DNA of 64,000 nucleotides from Vulcanimicrobiota bacterium (GTDB lineage: Bacteria > Vulcanimicrobiota > Xenobia > Xenobiales > JADMJV01). Positions 33,078-40,583 of this stretch are shown one piece after another. Made by a program: the position numbers and the translations under genes. Positions within the stretch are counted from its first letter, which is position 1. Each line of letters opens with the position of its first letter. The stretch covers positions 1 through 64,000 of the forward strand of contig JAHBVR010000003.1 of NCBI GenBank assembly GCA_019637395.1. Reading direction: 5' to 3'. Below the pieces are notes generated by a model. The model ran no database searches and was not told the origin of the DNA. It saw only the letters and a list, made by a program, of their open reading frames with translations.

Positions 33078-33929
33078 ATGAACGGGCTGTCACTGACCAA
33101 CGATATCGTTTTCAAGCTCGTCTTCGGCGCCGAGAAGCGGGAGCGTATCCTCCGCGCTCTTCTCAATGCCGTCCTTGGTCTCAAAGGGCCTGATCGTATT
33201 GTCAAGCTTACCATCATCAATCCCACTCTGGATAAGGCTCATGCCCTGGCCAAGAATTGCATCCTGGATATCAAAGCTCGTGATGGCCGCGGCCGCCGCT
33301 TCAATGTCGAAGTTCAGGTTAGCCGCGACCCCAATTACTTGAACCGCTCCCTTTACTACCTGACCAGTCTCTTCTCCGAACAACTCCAACCTGGCGACGG
33401 CTATGACGAGATCACCAAAGTGGTCAGCCTCTCCTTCGTGGACTACACACTCTTTCCCGACCAGGAATCTCTGCACAGCACTTATCGCCTGTATGATGAG
33501 GAAAACAAAAGGCACTTCCCCGATATCCTGGAGCTTCACTATATCGAGTTGAGCAAATTCAAAAAGGACAAGCCTCAAGATCTGAGGTCCCGTTTTGAAC
33601 GCTGGTTACACATCTTGAAGTTCGGGGAACTCTATCGCGATCAAAACTCGCCCATCCCTGCTAAGCTCATACAAGACAAGGAGGTCGTTATGGCACTCAA
33701 AACCTACCGCCAGGTCAGTTCATCCCAGGAGGTGCGAGAATTGCTCCTGTCAAGAGAAATGGCTGAGCGTGACCGGATCACCAGTCTCAAGCGAGCCTAC
33801 AAAGAGGGCGAACTCAAGGGCGAACTCAAGGGCAAGCTCGAGGCGGCTCAGGCTATGCTATCGCTTGGGATTGACCAGGCCACGGTCTGCGAAAAGTTAG
33901 GCCTTAAACCTGAGGACCTGTCTAGGTAG
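33078..33929 (+). CDS. Rpn/PD-(D/E)XK transposase-like nuclease
   Basis: The 283-residue chain begins MNGLSLTNDIVFKLVFGAEK, characteristic of the recombination-promoting nuclease (RpnA-like) and PDDEXK_2 family. Active-site residues are in ILDIKARDGRGRRFNVEVQV (Asp and the ExQ pair). The region NYLNRSLYYLTSLFSEQLQ and the C-terminal EGELKGELKGKLE stretch are also typical. Such genes are often mobile; members related to RpnA nick DNA and raise recombination. It sits between two sugar genes, with no inverted repeats seen, and overlaps the thiamine-enzyme gene by 8 bases. Confidence 0.85.
   Translation: MNGLSLTNDIVFKLVFGAEKRERILRALLNAVLGLKGPDRIVKLTIINPTLDKAHALAKNCILDIKARDGRGRRFNVEVQVSRDPNYLNRSLYYLTSLFSEQLQPGDGYDEITKVVSLSFVDYTLFPDQESLHSTYRLYDEENKRHFPDILELHYIELSKFKKDKPQDLRSRFERWLHILKFGELYRDQNSPIPAKLIQDKEVVMALKTYRQVSSSQEVRELLLSREMAERDRITSLKRAYKEGELKGELKGKLEAAQAMLSLGIDQATVCEKLGLKPEDLSR
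33807..33839 (+). repeat. 12-base tandem repeat in the Rpn-like gene
   Basis: GGCGAACTCAAG occurs twice head to tail (33807-33818 and 33819-33830) and is followed by a partial third copy. It encodes GELKGELKGKL. Slippage here would change repeat number without a frameshift. Confidence 0.7.
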
Positions 33930-35688: not shown

Positions 35689-35865
35689 ATCAGGCAACTG
35701 GCTCAAGCAGGTAACGCAACCGTGGCGATCCACAACCTGAGCCGGTGCCACCGCTGGGCCGTCAGATGGGCATTGAAGAAGTCGACCTGGCCCTTCAGGA
35801 GTGCTTTCCGCGCCATTGGCCTGACGCGGTCATGCGCTTCGTCGCCCTACGCGCTCGTTGACGAA
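35689..35865 (+). pseudogene. Remnant of a second galE gene
   Basis: Reading the plus strand gives IRQLAQAGNATVAIHNLS then RCHRWAVRW, which aligns with KHLSQAGHEIVVLDNLGRGH and RWAVKW of the intact GalE. One frame on, GIEEVDLALQECFPRHWPDA and VMRF match GLLEEVDL and RHRPDAVAHF. A third frame gives SPYALVDE for AYALVGE. Two frameshifts are needed to follow it, so it is dead. The remnant runs the same way as the intact gene at 26,031. Confidence 0.75.
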
Positions 35866-36629
35866 GGGTGCATGCCCTTGCTGGTTAATCTACGCAGAAT
35901 CAAACGTGCCGTTTGCCGGGCGTCGCCCCTTGGTCCGGCCCAGAAGATTGCGTTCTGCACACAAGTGCTGAGACAGCTTAAGGCCAAGCCGGGAGCTTTT
36001 CGGGCGGTGACCGTGTGAGCCATCAGTTCCATCGCGGCGCGGCCGGGACTCAGTTCCGTGGGTTTCCAACTGCGTCCTGCTTGATACCTTGTAGCAATCA
36101 CCGCTACTACCGGTGACGGAATGGCGCATAAATGCTCGGGTGACAGACGTTGACCACCGTCCACTCGTAAAGCGATGGGGCGAGGAAAAGGATGGACAGC
36201 GCCGGTCTGATCTATCACGGCGTATTCATCCGAAAGATACTCCGCGCCCTCCTGAACCAGCTGGTGGGTTAAGGTTGACTTTCCTGAAAAACTGCTCCCG
36301 GGTATTAAAATAACTCTACCTTGCCAGGCAACAGCTCCGGCATGCACAAATACCACACCCTGACAGTGGTTCGCCAGATAGAAATGTATCCGTCGTTCTA
36401 AAGCTTCGAAGATATCGGCTCGGTGTGGACGCGGCGGTTCGTCGTCCGGGCCGTGGATGAGCACGGCCCCATCCGGACACGATGAAATGCGGAAGACGGC
36501 AGTCGGAATTAACTCGGGCTGGTGTGACCAAATTGGTAGTAACAAGCTCCAAAGACACTCATCCAGCTCAGGGTTGTCCCATTCTAAAGCAATCCGAACC
36601 CCGAAGTAGACAAACTTAAGAAGAGCCAC
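35847..36629 (-). CDS. HprK-related serine kinase-like protein
   Basis: The Walker A motif VILIPGSSFSGKSTLTHQ and the following YLSDEYAVIDQTGAVHPFPR match the HPr kinase-related group found beside PqqD-like genes. It differs from true HprK by its N-terminal region. A GTG at 36629 is proposed as the start (about 260 residues); the open frame further left would run into the divergent amidotransferase. The last codons (GMHPSSTSA) read through the antisense of the galE remnant, so the original C-terminus may have been lost. The kinase target is unknown. Confidence 0.75.
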   Translation of the reverse strand: MALLKFVYFGVRIALEWDNPELDECLWSLLLPIWSHQPELIPTAVFRISSCPDGAVLIHGPDDEPPRPHRADIFEALERRIHFYLANHCQGVVFVHAGAVAWQGRVILIPGSSFSGKSTLTHQLVQEGAEYLSDEYAVIDQTGAVHPFPRPIALRVDGGQRLSPEHLCAIPSPVVAVIATRYQAGRSWKPTELSPGRAAMELMAHTVTARKAPGLALSCLSTCVQNAIFWAGPRGDARQTARLILRRLTSKGMHPSSTSA

Positions 36630-36703
36630 GAAACGTTCCCGTTCCGTGGTCTTAGAGCGAATCCTGCGAGGATTCCAGTCCAGTTTGCGAAAGAGGGGCC
36701 GCC

Positions 36704-38563
36704 ATGTGTGGTATTGTCGGGCTTTATCAGACGGGCGTTGGATTAACTCAGGAAGAGACCCGCTTCCGTGTGGAAACCATGCGAGACAGCCTCCGACATC
36801 GCGGCCCCGACGACGCTGGGACCTGGCTCGAACCGAATGGCCGCCTGGCAATGGGACATCGCCGACTCGCAATCTTGGATCTTAGCCCCGAAGGGCACCA
36901 ACCAATGGCCTCCAGGGACGGACGTTATCAGTTGGTTTATAACGGCGAAGTCTATAATTTCTTAGAACTACGCAGACAACTGGAACAATTCGGTCACCAC
37001 TTCAATGGGAGTTCCGATACTGAAGTGCTTCTCGCCGCCTTCTGCCAATGGGGCCTGGAGAACACCCTGCCGCGCTTAAACGGTATGTTCGCCCTGGCTC
37101 TCTGGGACGCTCGCGCTCAGCGCCTGGCCCTGGCGCGGGATCGCTATGGCAAGAAACCTCTTTACTACGGCCTTGTTGGTGAAGCCTGGGCCTTCGCTTC
37201 TGAGCTTAAAGCGCTGAAAACTCTTCCCGAATTCGACTCTTCCGTAAACCGCGCGGCATTAGGCGAGTACTTTCGATTGGGTTACGTACCCGCCCCCCTT
37301 AGCATCTATCAGGGCATTCATAAACTGCCGCCAGCAAGCTTTTGCTGGCTACCCGAAAGCCCTAAACCGTACTGGACCCTCGGCGCCACCGCCAGGAGTA
37401 ACCAACCAACCAGCCTGGAACAGATAGAGCAGGCGTTATTGACCGCAGTCAAACTACGTATGGCTTCGGACGTTCCTCTTGGCGCCTTTTTATCGGGTGG
37501 AATCGATTCATCCTTGATCGTGGCCATGATGCAGGAGCAGAGTGACCAACCTGTACGTACCTTTAGCTTGGGATTTCATTCCGCGACCCACGACGAGGCC
37601 ATTTATGCCCGCAAAGTTGCGGAACATCTGGGTACTCAACACGTCGAGCACTATGTGACGGCGACGGAGGCTCTGGATGTGGTCCCGCATCTACCTCGAT
37701 TCTACGATGAACCGTTCGCCGACTCGTCTCAGATCGCCACCTATCTGGTTTCAAAACTGGCCCGCACACAAGTTACCGTGGCCCTCTCTGGCGACGGTGG
37801 AGATGAAGTGTTTGGAGGCTATAACCGCTATCTATTTGCTCCTCAAGTTTGGCGGTGGCTTCGCGTCCTGCCCCTATCTCTGCGAAAAATTTTGAGTGCT
37901 CTTGTGAATCGTCTGCCGCTAAGCTTGCTGGAACCGTTGCTGGCCGGGCGTGTCTCCTATCCGAAAGAAAAGCTCACCAAGCTGGCCCATCTTCTACCTT
38001 GCCGAGACGAGGCTGAGATCTACCGCTCGTTGATCTCCCAATGGCAAGAACCGCGCTCGGTGGTTATCGGCGCCGCCCCTCCAATACCCGAAAAGCCTAT
38101 CAATGGTGATTTCGTGCACTGGATGATGATTCGAGACGCGCAGACTTACCTGCCCGATGACATTCTGGTCAAAGTCGACCGTGCCTCCATGGCGGTCAGC
38201 CTGGAAGCCCGCGCTCCCCTGCTGGACCCGACCGTGACCGACCTGGCCTGGCGACTTCCCCGCGAGCAGAAAATTGAGGGGCGCGAGGGCAAACGTATTC
38301 TTCGCAAGCTACTCTATAAACGGGTCCCATCCTCTTTGTTTCAACGTCCCAAGGCGGGGTTTTCCCTTCCCCTGGGAGACTGGTTGCGAGTGGAACTCAG
38401 GGACTGGGTCGAGACGATGCTGGAAACGGTCTCGAAGGATGGCTACCTCAGAGTCGAACCAGTTCGAAGAATATGGAGGGAGCACACCTCAGGTTATCGA
38501 GATCGGAGCGCGGCGCTCTGGACCGTCCTAATGTTTCAGGCCTGGATGAGGGAGGCTCGTTAG
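36704..38563 (+). CDS. asnB: Asparagine synthase-like amidotransferase
   Basis: This 619-residue protein starts MCGIVGLYQTG, with Cys2 as the glutaminase nucleophile, and continues as a class II GATase domain to about residue 200. The synthase domain has FLSGGIDSSLIVAMM (ATP pyrophosphatase loop) and VALSGDGGDEVFGGYNRY. In exopolysaccharide loci this family often amidates a sugar acid or peptide rather than Asp. It is divergent from the HprK-like gene (74-base gap) and is followed after 146 bases by the PqqD-fusion gene. Its true acceptor is not evident. Confidence 0.9.
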   Translation: MCGIVGLYQTGVGLTQEETRFRVETMRDSLRHRGPDDAGTWLEPNGRLAMGHRRLAILDLSPEGHQPMASRDGRYQLVYNGEVYNFLELRRQLEQFGHHFNGSSDTEVLLAAFCQWGLENTLPRLNGMFALALWDARAQRLALARDRYGKKPLYYGLVGEAWAFASELKALKTLPEFDSSVNRAALGEYFRLGYVPAPLSIYQGIHKLPPASFCWLPESPKPYWTLGATARSNQPTSLEQIEQALLTAVKLRMASDVPLGAFLSGGIDSSLIVAMMQEQSDQPVRTFSLGFHSATHDEAIYARKVAEHLGTQHVEHYVTATEALDVVPHLPRFYDEPFADSSQIATYLVSKLARTQVTVALSGDGGDEVFGGYNRYLFAPQVWRWLRVLPLSLRKILSALVNRLPLSLLEPLLAGRVSYPKEKLTKLAHLLPCRDEAEIYRSLISQWQEPRSVVIGAAPPIPEKPINGDFVHWMMIRDAQTYLPDDILVKVDRASMAVSLEARAPLLDPTVTDLAWRLPREQKIEGREGKRILRKLLYKRVPSSLFQRPKAGFSLPLGDWLRVELRDWVETMLETVSKDGYLRVEPVRRIWREHTSGYRDRSAALWTVLMFQAWMREAR

Positions 38564-38709: not shown

Positions 38710-39360
38710 ATGAAAGCATATCTGCGTAGACCAGACCTCATAGAACAACCGTTGGGGACTGAGGTTCTCATCTATGATTCGCGCACAGCCCACTGTCATG
38801 TCTTAGCCAGGCAGGCGGCTGAACTTTGGGAGCTACTGCTCCTGCCCCACACACTCCCCGAACTAACGGAGAAGTTCGCTGACAAATGGCCGGATTTCAC
38901 CCGCGAAATGATGACAGTCCTGCTCTCGGAATTCCAAGATAAAGGTCTCTTAGCCGATGGCTCTCCGGAAACAAAGTCTGGCCCCGGTCGTCGAAAAATT
39001 CTGAAAGCTCTGGGGGCGGGACTTTTGCTTTCGTCGGTGGCCCCGACTGCGGCAGCGGCGGCCAGTACCACCCTGAGGATCATCAATTCCCGATACGGTG
39101 CCAACATTGCTACTCGCCTGCTGTGCGGAAGACCGGGCGTAACCCTCGGCAACGGAGATTTCAATAATGTGACTACCGTTATCCGAGGACTGATCTCCGG
39201 CAACAGTTTGAGCGTCCCCGTCAATAACAGTGGAGTGCTCGGCTCCGGTCCGTATCCCGCCCTGGTTCAAGAACTGATCGTCGGCTACACCTGCTCAGAT
39301 GGTGTGTTCCGCCAAGAGCGGACCTGCGACGGTGGACTTTTGACTATAAAATGTCCCTGA
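38710..39360 (+). CDS. PqqD-like domain fused by a twin-arginine signal to an exported Cys domain
   Basis: Residues 1-85 have the PqqD-like (RRE) pattern: LRRPDLIEQPLGTEVLIYDS, HVLARQAAELWELL and LLSEFQDKGLL. Next, GRRKILKALGAGLLLSS (about 93-110) is a twin-arginine-like export segment ending in Ala-rich APTAAAAA. Residues 117-216 read IINSRYGANIA, VTTVIRGLISG, VNNSGVLGSGP and ELIVGYTCSDG, resembling a YG...VT...G.P domain (DUF3395-like in my recall) with four Cys, one of them in the final KCP. PqqD domains normally bind a peptide in the cytoplasm, so an export segment in the same chain is unusual. The last 10 bases overlap the O-antigen ligase gene. Confidence 0.75.
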   Translation: MKAYLRRPDLIEQPLGTEVLIYDSRTAHCHVLARQAAELWELLLLPHTLPELTEKFADKWPDFTREMMTVLLSEFQDKGLLADGSPETKSGPGRRKILKALGAGLLLSSVAPTAAAAASTTLRIINSRYGANIATRLLCGRPGVTLGNGDFNNVTTVIRGLISGNSLSVPVNNSGVLGSGPYPALVQELIVGYTCSDGVFRQERTCDGGLLTIKCP

Positions 39361-40583
39361 CGGTAGGCAGCTTGAGGGGGACTGCTTCACTGGACAGACT
39401 CTGCCAATCGCTCCTATTCTTTCTCGCGCTGACCTTACCACTGGCGCGAATTCCCTTTCCCAGTTCCAATTCTGTCTTGCCGGGACAGGATTTGCAATTA
39501 TTCGATCTTATCGCTTGCCTATCGGCAGTGACGGCCATTCTGTGCTTCATGTTCCGGCCCAACTTTCGTCACCTGGTCCCACTCCTATACCCTATCGCCC
39601 TGGCGGTCAGCGCCTCCGTTTCCGAAAATCCAGGGCAATCCGTAATCCCGTTGGCCAAAGCTATATATCTCTCAGGCCTGGCTTGCCTCGTTCAGGTATT
39701 TCTCGATCGTTCTCCCCAGAAAGGGCATAGGTGGCTAAGATGGGGCTGGCTCGCCGGTCTGACTTTAACCTGTTTCTGTATCATACTGGGCGTTATCGGC
39801 TTCTACTCGGGCTGCAGCACCCAGCAAACGAACATTTTTCTGTTCCACTACGGTTCGATCAAAGCCGGCCATTTTCCAAGAGTGTGCGCCACTTTTTTTA
39901 ACGCCAATCTGCTTTGCAACTATTTACTGGTCAGTCTCGCCTGGCTCAAGAGCGTTCGCGCGCGAGCCCTTGTCGCGTTGTGCTCCCTAGCCACACTATC
40001 CCCCGGTCTCGGACCGCTCTTTCTCCTGTTCCTGTGGGACTTCAAATCCAGACCCTCCCGCATTGCCGGGACGGTCATCGCCCTGACGATGTACCTGCTG
40101 ACCTGGACCTACCCCAACGACTTGTTTCAAGGTCACTTTCGAGCCAGCGGCCGAGTGGAATGCTGGCGCCAATCTACAAACCTGTGGCTGCAGTCACCTT
40201 TACTTGGGCAAGGTCCCGGTCAGGCTTTGGTCCTTGTACGCTGGCAGGCTCCCGATGGAGCGATTGGGACGCTCACCGATCCCCACAACACAAGCTTGAG
40301 CCTCTTGTCCCAAGGTGGAGTGCTGCTTATGGCCGTGGTCATGACCGTTTTTCTCACCAACAGAGCCAACTGCGACCGGGAGTTATTCAAAGCCATCCTC
40401 CTGGCGTTCTGGCTTGACGGTCTAACCGGCTCTTTCGAGGATGCACGCCATATTTGGGTGGCAATTGGAGCCCTGTGCTTATTTCCCGCGGCGGCCGGGT
40501 CGGAAGTGGGTCACAACTGCCAGAAGTACGTGTGCCCGCTCCCTTCTCGGCTCAACCCACCCGTGAGGTCGACCACAATCTGA
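39351..40583 (+). CDS. O-antigen ligase/polymerase family protein
   Basis: A 410-residue polytopic protein (about ten hydrophobic segments) with a large periplasmic loop before the last helices containing GRVECWRQSTNLWLQSPLLG, GQGPGQAL and DPHNTSLSLLSQGG. These are typical of the Wzy_C/WaaL family, which joins or polymerises lipid-linked glycan at the outer face of the inner membrane. The ATG overlaps the PqqD-fusion gene by 10 bases, suggesting coupled expression. The last 73 bases overlap, in opposite direction, the end of the UDP-GalNAc dehydrogenase-like gene. Confidence 0.85.
   Translation: MSLTVGSLRGTASLDRLCQSLLFFLALTLPLARIPFPSSNSVLPGQDLQLFDLIACLSAVTAILCFMFRPNFRHLVPLLYPIALAVSASVSENPGQSVIPLAKAIYLSGLACLVQVFLDRSPQKGHRWLRWGWLAGLTLTCFCIILGVIGFYSGCSTQQTNIFLFHYGSIKAGHFPRVCATFFNANLLCNYLLVSLAWLKSVRARALVALCSLATLSPGLGPLFLLFLWDFKSRPSRIAGTVIALTMYLLTWTYPNDLFQGHFRASGRVECWRQSTNLWLQSPLLGQGPGQALVLVRWQAPDGAIGTLTDPHNTSLSLLSQGGVLLMAVVMTVFLTNRANCDRELFKAILLAFWLDGLTGSFEDARHIWVAIGALCLFPAAAGSEVGHNCQKYVCPLPSRLNPPVRSTTI

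Follow-up and report, generated by a model that had tools for sequence, protein, structure and literature searches.

How does one polypeptide come to carry a peptide-recognition domain, an export signal and a Cys-rich domain, and in which compartment does each part work? The question is raised by the gene at 38710–39360 of the window, the whole 64,000-nt stretch of a Vulcanimicrobiota contig that was analysed. A sequence-only reading of this DNA described a PqqD-like domain followed by a twin-arginine-like signal and a separate Cys-rich domain. It offered two explanations: cytoplasmic recognition of a partner with export of the rest, or a protein that is its own modification substrate. The open reading frame is exact, lies on the forward strand and encodes 216 amino acids. 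It is a real gene. Its product shares 63% identity with an orthologue from a sister species. The dN/dS of this pair (NG86) shows purifying selection, with ~0.19 for the whole gene, ~0.21 in the PqqD part and ~0.16 in the C-terminal part; identity is lower in the PqqD part than in the C-terminal part (51% versus 72%). Single-protein scans of genome contigs and viral contigs yield no relative. The features of the locus are collected in Table 1.

Table 1. Features of the locus, in window coordinates
Feature	Position	Strand	Basis
HprK-related kinase	35847..36662	-	TIGR04352 63.5 bits, E 1.7e-17 (cut-off 200); alignment A5, 11 relatives
Asparagine-synthase-type amidotransferase, exopolysaccharide cluster	36704..38563	+	asn_synth_AEB 481.7 bits, above cut-off
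PqqD-like / RiPP recognition element (RRE) domain, predicted, residues 1-83	38710..38958	+	predicted fold; weak sequence-model matches
Internal twin-arginine signal, predicted, residues 90-119: SGPGRRKILKALGAGLLLSSVAPTAAAAAS	38977..39066	+	conservation in the subfamily and in alignment A4
Rhamnose-binding-lectin-like domain, residues 119-216, read as circularly permuted	39064..39357	+	profile homology via paralogues
O-antigen-ligase-like (Wzy_C) gene	39351..40583	+	PF04932 E 1.9e-10

The surrounding cluster is of the exopolysaccharide type and includes glycosyltransferases, Wzz, UDP-sugar dehydrogenases and the O-antigen-ligase-like gene, the start of which overlaps the end of the gene under study. 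A PD-(D/E)XK nuclease family transposase gene (33078–33929) also lies within the cluster. The amidotransferase gene sits between the kinase gene and the gene under study. Its identification as a lasso cyclase is rejected, as NF033535 gives 226 bits against a cut-off of 525 and asn_synth_AEB fits instead. The kinase gene is transcribed divergently from the amidotransferase gene, and its product has a P-loop and the His-Lys-Asp-Asp residues. We take the kinase gene to extend up to ~36662; the longest open reading frame runs to 36872 but overlaps the next gene.

The prediction of an RRE fold for residues 1–83 is well supported. Given an alignment of acidobacterial relatives, AlphaFold models this region with a pLDDT of ~90. 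The predicted elements are strands 4–6, 10–15, 18–23 and 28–32 and helices 34–42, 49–59 and 65–77, and the model has the winged-helix RRE fold of a three-stranded sheet and three helices. The top VIA-align match is TbiB1 (5v1v_A), with a Z of 11.5 and an rmsd of 1.6 Å over 85 residues; TbiB1 is a lasso-peptide B1 RRE whose structure was solved bound to leader peptide. Most of the next matches are RRE proteins or RRE-bearing RiPP enzymes (TigE, NisB, heterocyclases, ThcOx and PqqD). Sequence models match the window protein weakly: PF05402 gives 14.6 bits (E 0.043, gathering cut-off 23.4) and TIGR04353 gives 19.3 bits (E 0.0017, equivalog cut-off 35). Two relatives, L045 and L047, pass the PF05402 cut-off with 36.5 and 34.7 bits. 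The PqqD-like domain of the sequence-only reading is thus recovered as a predicted winged-helix fold, and in the model the hydrophobic segment is separate from it. Two other leader proteins, L032 and L035, have a long N-terminal extension that resembles another RRE-like domain, arranged in tandem ahead of the Tat signal.

The twin-arginine-like signal proposed from the sequence also holds as a prediction, with an RR pair, a hydrophobic stretch and an AxA-type site at a position that is conserved in the subfamily. The segment runs from RRKILK to AAAAAS, and signal peptidase would probably cut near AAAAA-S. Seven residues (Arg94, Arg95, Leu98, Gly102, Ala116, Ala117 and Ser119) are invariant across the six subfamily proteins. 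In the wider alignment A4, Arg94 is present in 21/21 rows and Arg95 in 20/21; the exception, L062, has RA in place of RR. The family pattern around the pair is [SNT]-RR-[EQD]-[VMIL]-[VIL]-[KR]. Its rows were preselected by an R-R/A pattern and the RR count there is partly circular, so the unselected measures are the six-member subfamily and A4. Across the window's open frames with at least 100 amino acids (47,771 residues in all), the internal Tat-like pattern matches once, in this protein. There are two TatC genes in the genome. We know of no internal Tat signal that follows an RRE. The N-terminus is free in most known Tat signals, and the described internal ones come after Sec-inserted helices (PMC5449189). 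The actinobacterial Rieske protein Sco2149 shares the twin-arginine motif inside the chain, but there Sec-inserted helices precede the motif, whereas in the window protein a soluble recognition domain does (PMC5449189).

The C-terminal domain contains, as seen earlier, four Cys and a YG motif. The Cys are residues 139, 195, 206 and 215, of which the last three are invariant in 6/6 subfamily members. PF02140 does not match the window copy, a PDB search with its C-terminal domain by itself returns no lectin, and a single-sequence structure model fails at a pLDDT of ~39. The relationship to rhamnose-binding lectins comes through the paralogues. A paralogue from the same genome alone matches SUEL_Lectin at E 3e-4 and the rhamnose-binding lectin 5h4s at E 4.5e-13, with PF02140 at 21.6 bits, below its gathering cut-off of 31.4. 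The six-member subfamily profile (A3) matches 5h4s at E 1.4e-15 and CSL3 at E 3.8e-10 in the PDB. A profile built from three paralogues detects the window domain at E 1.2e-4, while the best of 2000 shuffles reaches 0.01. The canonical lectin repeat begins with CEGxxLxLxCP and ends with YxC. In the window copy RTCDGGLLTIKCP comes after YTC, which places the C1–C2 strand at the C-terminus, and the domain is therefore read as circularly permuted. Rhamnose-binding lectins form the disulfides C1–C3, C2–C8, C4–C7 and C5–C6 (PMC3269628). By the alignment, Cys139 is C3, Cys195 is C8, Cys206 is C1 and Cys215 is C2, and the four Cys would make up two complete canonical bridges. This supports the separate C-terminal domain of the earlier reading and makes it disulfide-capable. 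With SUEL and CSL3 (PMC3269628) the domain shares profile homology, the YG motif, C3, C8 and the C1–C2 strand; it differs in being permuted, bacterial and Tat-led, with four Cys instead of eight and with the DPC motif lost. The paralogue L012 keeps eight Cys and FGDPC, while the window copy has SGPYP at this place, and sugar binding by the window copy is therefore only putative. Among 148 genomes of the phylum, the lectin domain was found in only six proteins from three genomes, and the same six carry the leader. Given its place in an exopolysaccharide cluster, the window cargo would most likely bind a polysaccharide of its own cell or of a neighbour.

The RRE and the Tat signal together form a transferable leader that precedes unrelated cargos in two phyla. 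Neither this leader role nor the lectin likeness of the C-terminal domain is part of the sequence-only reading. In the window's class, the six-protein profile finds many more proteins that share this RRE and RR signal and continue into unrelated parts, and the cargos include lectin, Cys-rich, Gly-rich and YfbK-like VWA types. One gene of the window's own genome (L038:1297-3261) fuses the RRE and Tat leader to a YfbK-like von Willebrand A protein, and an NTP_transf_5 gene lies directly downstream. A scan of genome contigs with alignment A2 finds the same architecture in Acidobacteriota. We sampled 118 related genomes from the class of one acidobacterial relative, and the leader is present in 74 of them. 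Pyrinomonadaceae SSF56 (G063; L098-L133) has 44 leader-profile matches on ~26 contigs, nearly all of full length, and a second acidobacterial genome has at least 36 copies. Among 40 complete SSF56 copies the leaders have a mean identity of 48%, and the cargos 31%, against 28% for shuffled cargos. These cargos are 54–143 residues long, and all 40 have an even number of Cys (from 6 to 22). Over all rows the count is even in 62 of the 63 Cys-bearing cargos. We read the even-Cys cargos as probable disulfide-bonded exported domains. In genome G071 (L135, L136), collagen-like GPT repeats follow the RRE and Tat leaders in place of a Cys-rich cargo.

The leader family tracks an HprK-related kinase. 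In the acidobacterial sample 72 genomes have both, 2 the leader only, 4 the kinase only and 40 neither, so that both families occur in 72 of the 78 genomes having either one; the Fisher p of 2e-24 overstates independence, since the 118 genomes are related. The kinase gene is usually single-copy, also in the genomes with 44 and at least 36 leaders. In SSF56 the one kinase gene is on contig C31, where none of the listed leaders is found. Alignment A5 shows His, Lys, Asp and Asp to be invariant in 12/12 kinases, and these are the residues that lasso-peptide kinases require (PMC9266682). The other partner is an NTP_transf_5 nucleotidyltransferase. In at least 33 genomes, counted by eye from the tables, its gene lies <1.5 kb downstream of a leader gene on the same strand; only gene position is used, as mere presence (107/118 acidobacterial genomes) does not discriminate. 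Among the 10 genomes of the window's class that match the leader profile, the nucleotidyltransferase is found in 9 and the kinase, by TIGR04352, in 8, and no genome of this class reaches the cut-off of 200. For the window itself, the closest nucleotidyltransferase of the genome lies 2.5 kb past its end, at contig position 66459. In pseudomycoidin biosynthesis such a kinase and nucleotidyltransferase pair phosphorylates and then glycosylates a peptide (PMC9266682). The neighbours of the leader genes include no other recurrent modifying-enzyme family. Three proteins of ~250 amino acids without a P-loop are found near lectin-type leader genes (L012:7963-8715, L015:2933-3676 and L017:3417-4145). 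A BLASTP impression that they are unrelated to the kinase is overturned by profile comparison, which relates them to the HprK-like kinase with 96% probability. They are likely pseudokinases, and given their presence at three loci the lectin subfamily may be diverging from kinase action.

Taking these observations together, we give an even chance to the view that the window protein belongs, as a client, to a system of modification and export whose recognition element sits on the substrate and not on the enzyme. The N-terminal RRE would stay in the cytoplasm and recruit the HprK-related kinase and, in many genomes, the neighbouring NTP_transf_5 nucleotidyltransferase as well. The recruited enzymes would act on the client by modifying it or by licensing its export. 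Led by the internal twin-arginine signal, the C-terminal part would then pass through the Tat translocon; once signal peptidase has cut after AAAAA, the freed domain would close its disulfides outside. We prefer the client model mainly because of the pattern of one kinase and many leaders. The same pattern, with up to 44 leader proteins per kinase gene, and the co-occurrence of the families lend indirect support to the putative second option of the sequence-only reading, a protein that is itself the substrate of modification. Several findings count against the client model. A phospho-acceptor was sought across the family and none is conserved, and the lasso-type C-terminal Ser is absent from the window protein, which ends in IKCP, and present in only 3/68 family members. 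The P-loop-less neighbours, the relative L065, which stops at the hydrophobic segment without a cargo, the RA of L062, the free N-termini of most known Tat signals and the position of the described internal ones after Sec-inserted helices also weigh on this side.

A serious rival, which we nevertheless hold to be rather unlikely, requires no covalent modification. The RRE would be a cis-acting Tat proofreading chaperone, comparable to a fused redox-enzyme maturation protein, that hides its own linker and the RR region until the cargo is ready. The placement of the RRE directly before the RR region suits this role, as do the peptide binding of RRE domains, seen in the matches to RRE–leader complexes, and the unconstrained sequence of the cargo; the near-perfect co-occurrence with a kinase that keeps its catalytic residues and the linked nucleotidyltransferase are left unexplained. 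The hydrophobic segment might also be an uncleaved anchor of a membrane sensor or adaptor, with the RRE inside, the Cys-rich or lectin part outside and the kinase signalling through the inner domain. The best 19-residue hydropathy averages 1.84 over the family and exceeds 1.6 in 86% of the proteins, and the cargo-less L065 fits an anchor; the window copy, however, scores just 1.53. The Ala-rich AxA-type ends and the RR-x-hydrophobic-hydrophobic-K/R pattern suit a cleaved Tat signal, and 44 highly variable outer domains with one kinase would be unusual for sensors. We regard the anchor as unlikely.

That the Cys-rich C-terminal part is a RiPP core, modified by enzymes recruited via the fused RRE and with its even Cys in non-disulfide crosslinks, appears quite improbable. 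Conserved leaders, hypervariable cores and many orphan copies with one kinase are what such a system would present. However, some cargos are whole folded domains, namely the YfbK/VWA protein and the lectin-like domain with its canonical disulfide positions, and among the neighbours no modifying-enzyme family recurs besides the kinase and the nucleotidyltransferase. Very improbable indeed is a gene-fusion relic, in which the RRE has no present role and the gene codes for nothing more than an ordinary lectin-like export product. The faster divergence of the PqqD part between the orthologues points this way, but that part evolves under purifying selection and has been retained ahead of unrelated cargos in two phyla.

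The individual parts are known, and the arrangement with the RRE on a putative exported client appears to be new; the family appears to be undescribed. Known RREs are either separate proteins or domains within modifying enzymes (PMC7470986). RRE-Finder lists RRE–enzyme fusions, and its text contains neither 'twin' nor 'signal peptide'. For the window protein, the architecture is covered at cut-off by neither NCBIfam nor Pfam models, NCBIfam models do not cover the relatives tested either, and the literature searched, with most subscription journals outside it, gives no description of PqqD with Tat. The HPr-rel-A system also combines an HprK-related kinase (kinase A, TIGR04352) with a PqqD-like protein (PqqD family chaperone, TIGR04353). 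The window proteins, however, fall far under both cut-offs (63.5 of 200 and 19.3 of 35), and the TIGR04353 model has 74 positions without Tat signal or cargo, unlike the window protein. With the clusters of phosphorylated and glycosylated lasso peptides (paeninodin PadeK, pseudomycoidin PsmK/PsmN; PMC9266682) the system shares an RRE that is closest to lasso B1, a kinase of the HprK type with His-Lys-Asp-Asp, and a nucleotidyltransferase in the window's genome that is often adjacent in relatives. It differs from them in that the RRE is fused to the client, the client has a Tat signal, no lasso precursor with a C-terminal Ser is present and the amidotransferase is of the exopolysaccharide type.

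An RRE fused with a Tat signal to a predicted exported protein thus occurs in two phyla, in up to 44 copies per genome, in a family that tracks one kinase. Signal-peptide predictors may miss such proteins because the signal starts near residue 90. We tentatively propose a wider class of maturation and export, in which the substrate itself bears the RRE within a universal leader of RRE and Tat signal, dozens of clients share one HprK-related kinase, and hypervariable disulfide-rich or lectin cargos are placed on the cell surface. If true, RRE-guided modification and Tat export would be linked, orphan HprK-related kinases and NTP_transf_5 proteins would gain a suggested function, and soil bacteria would prove to hold a large reservoir of secreted proteins rich in disulfides.
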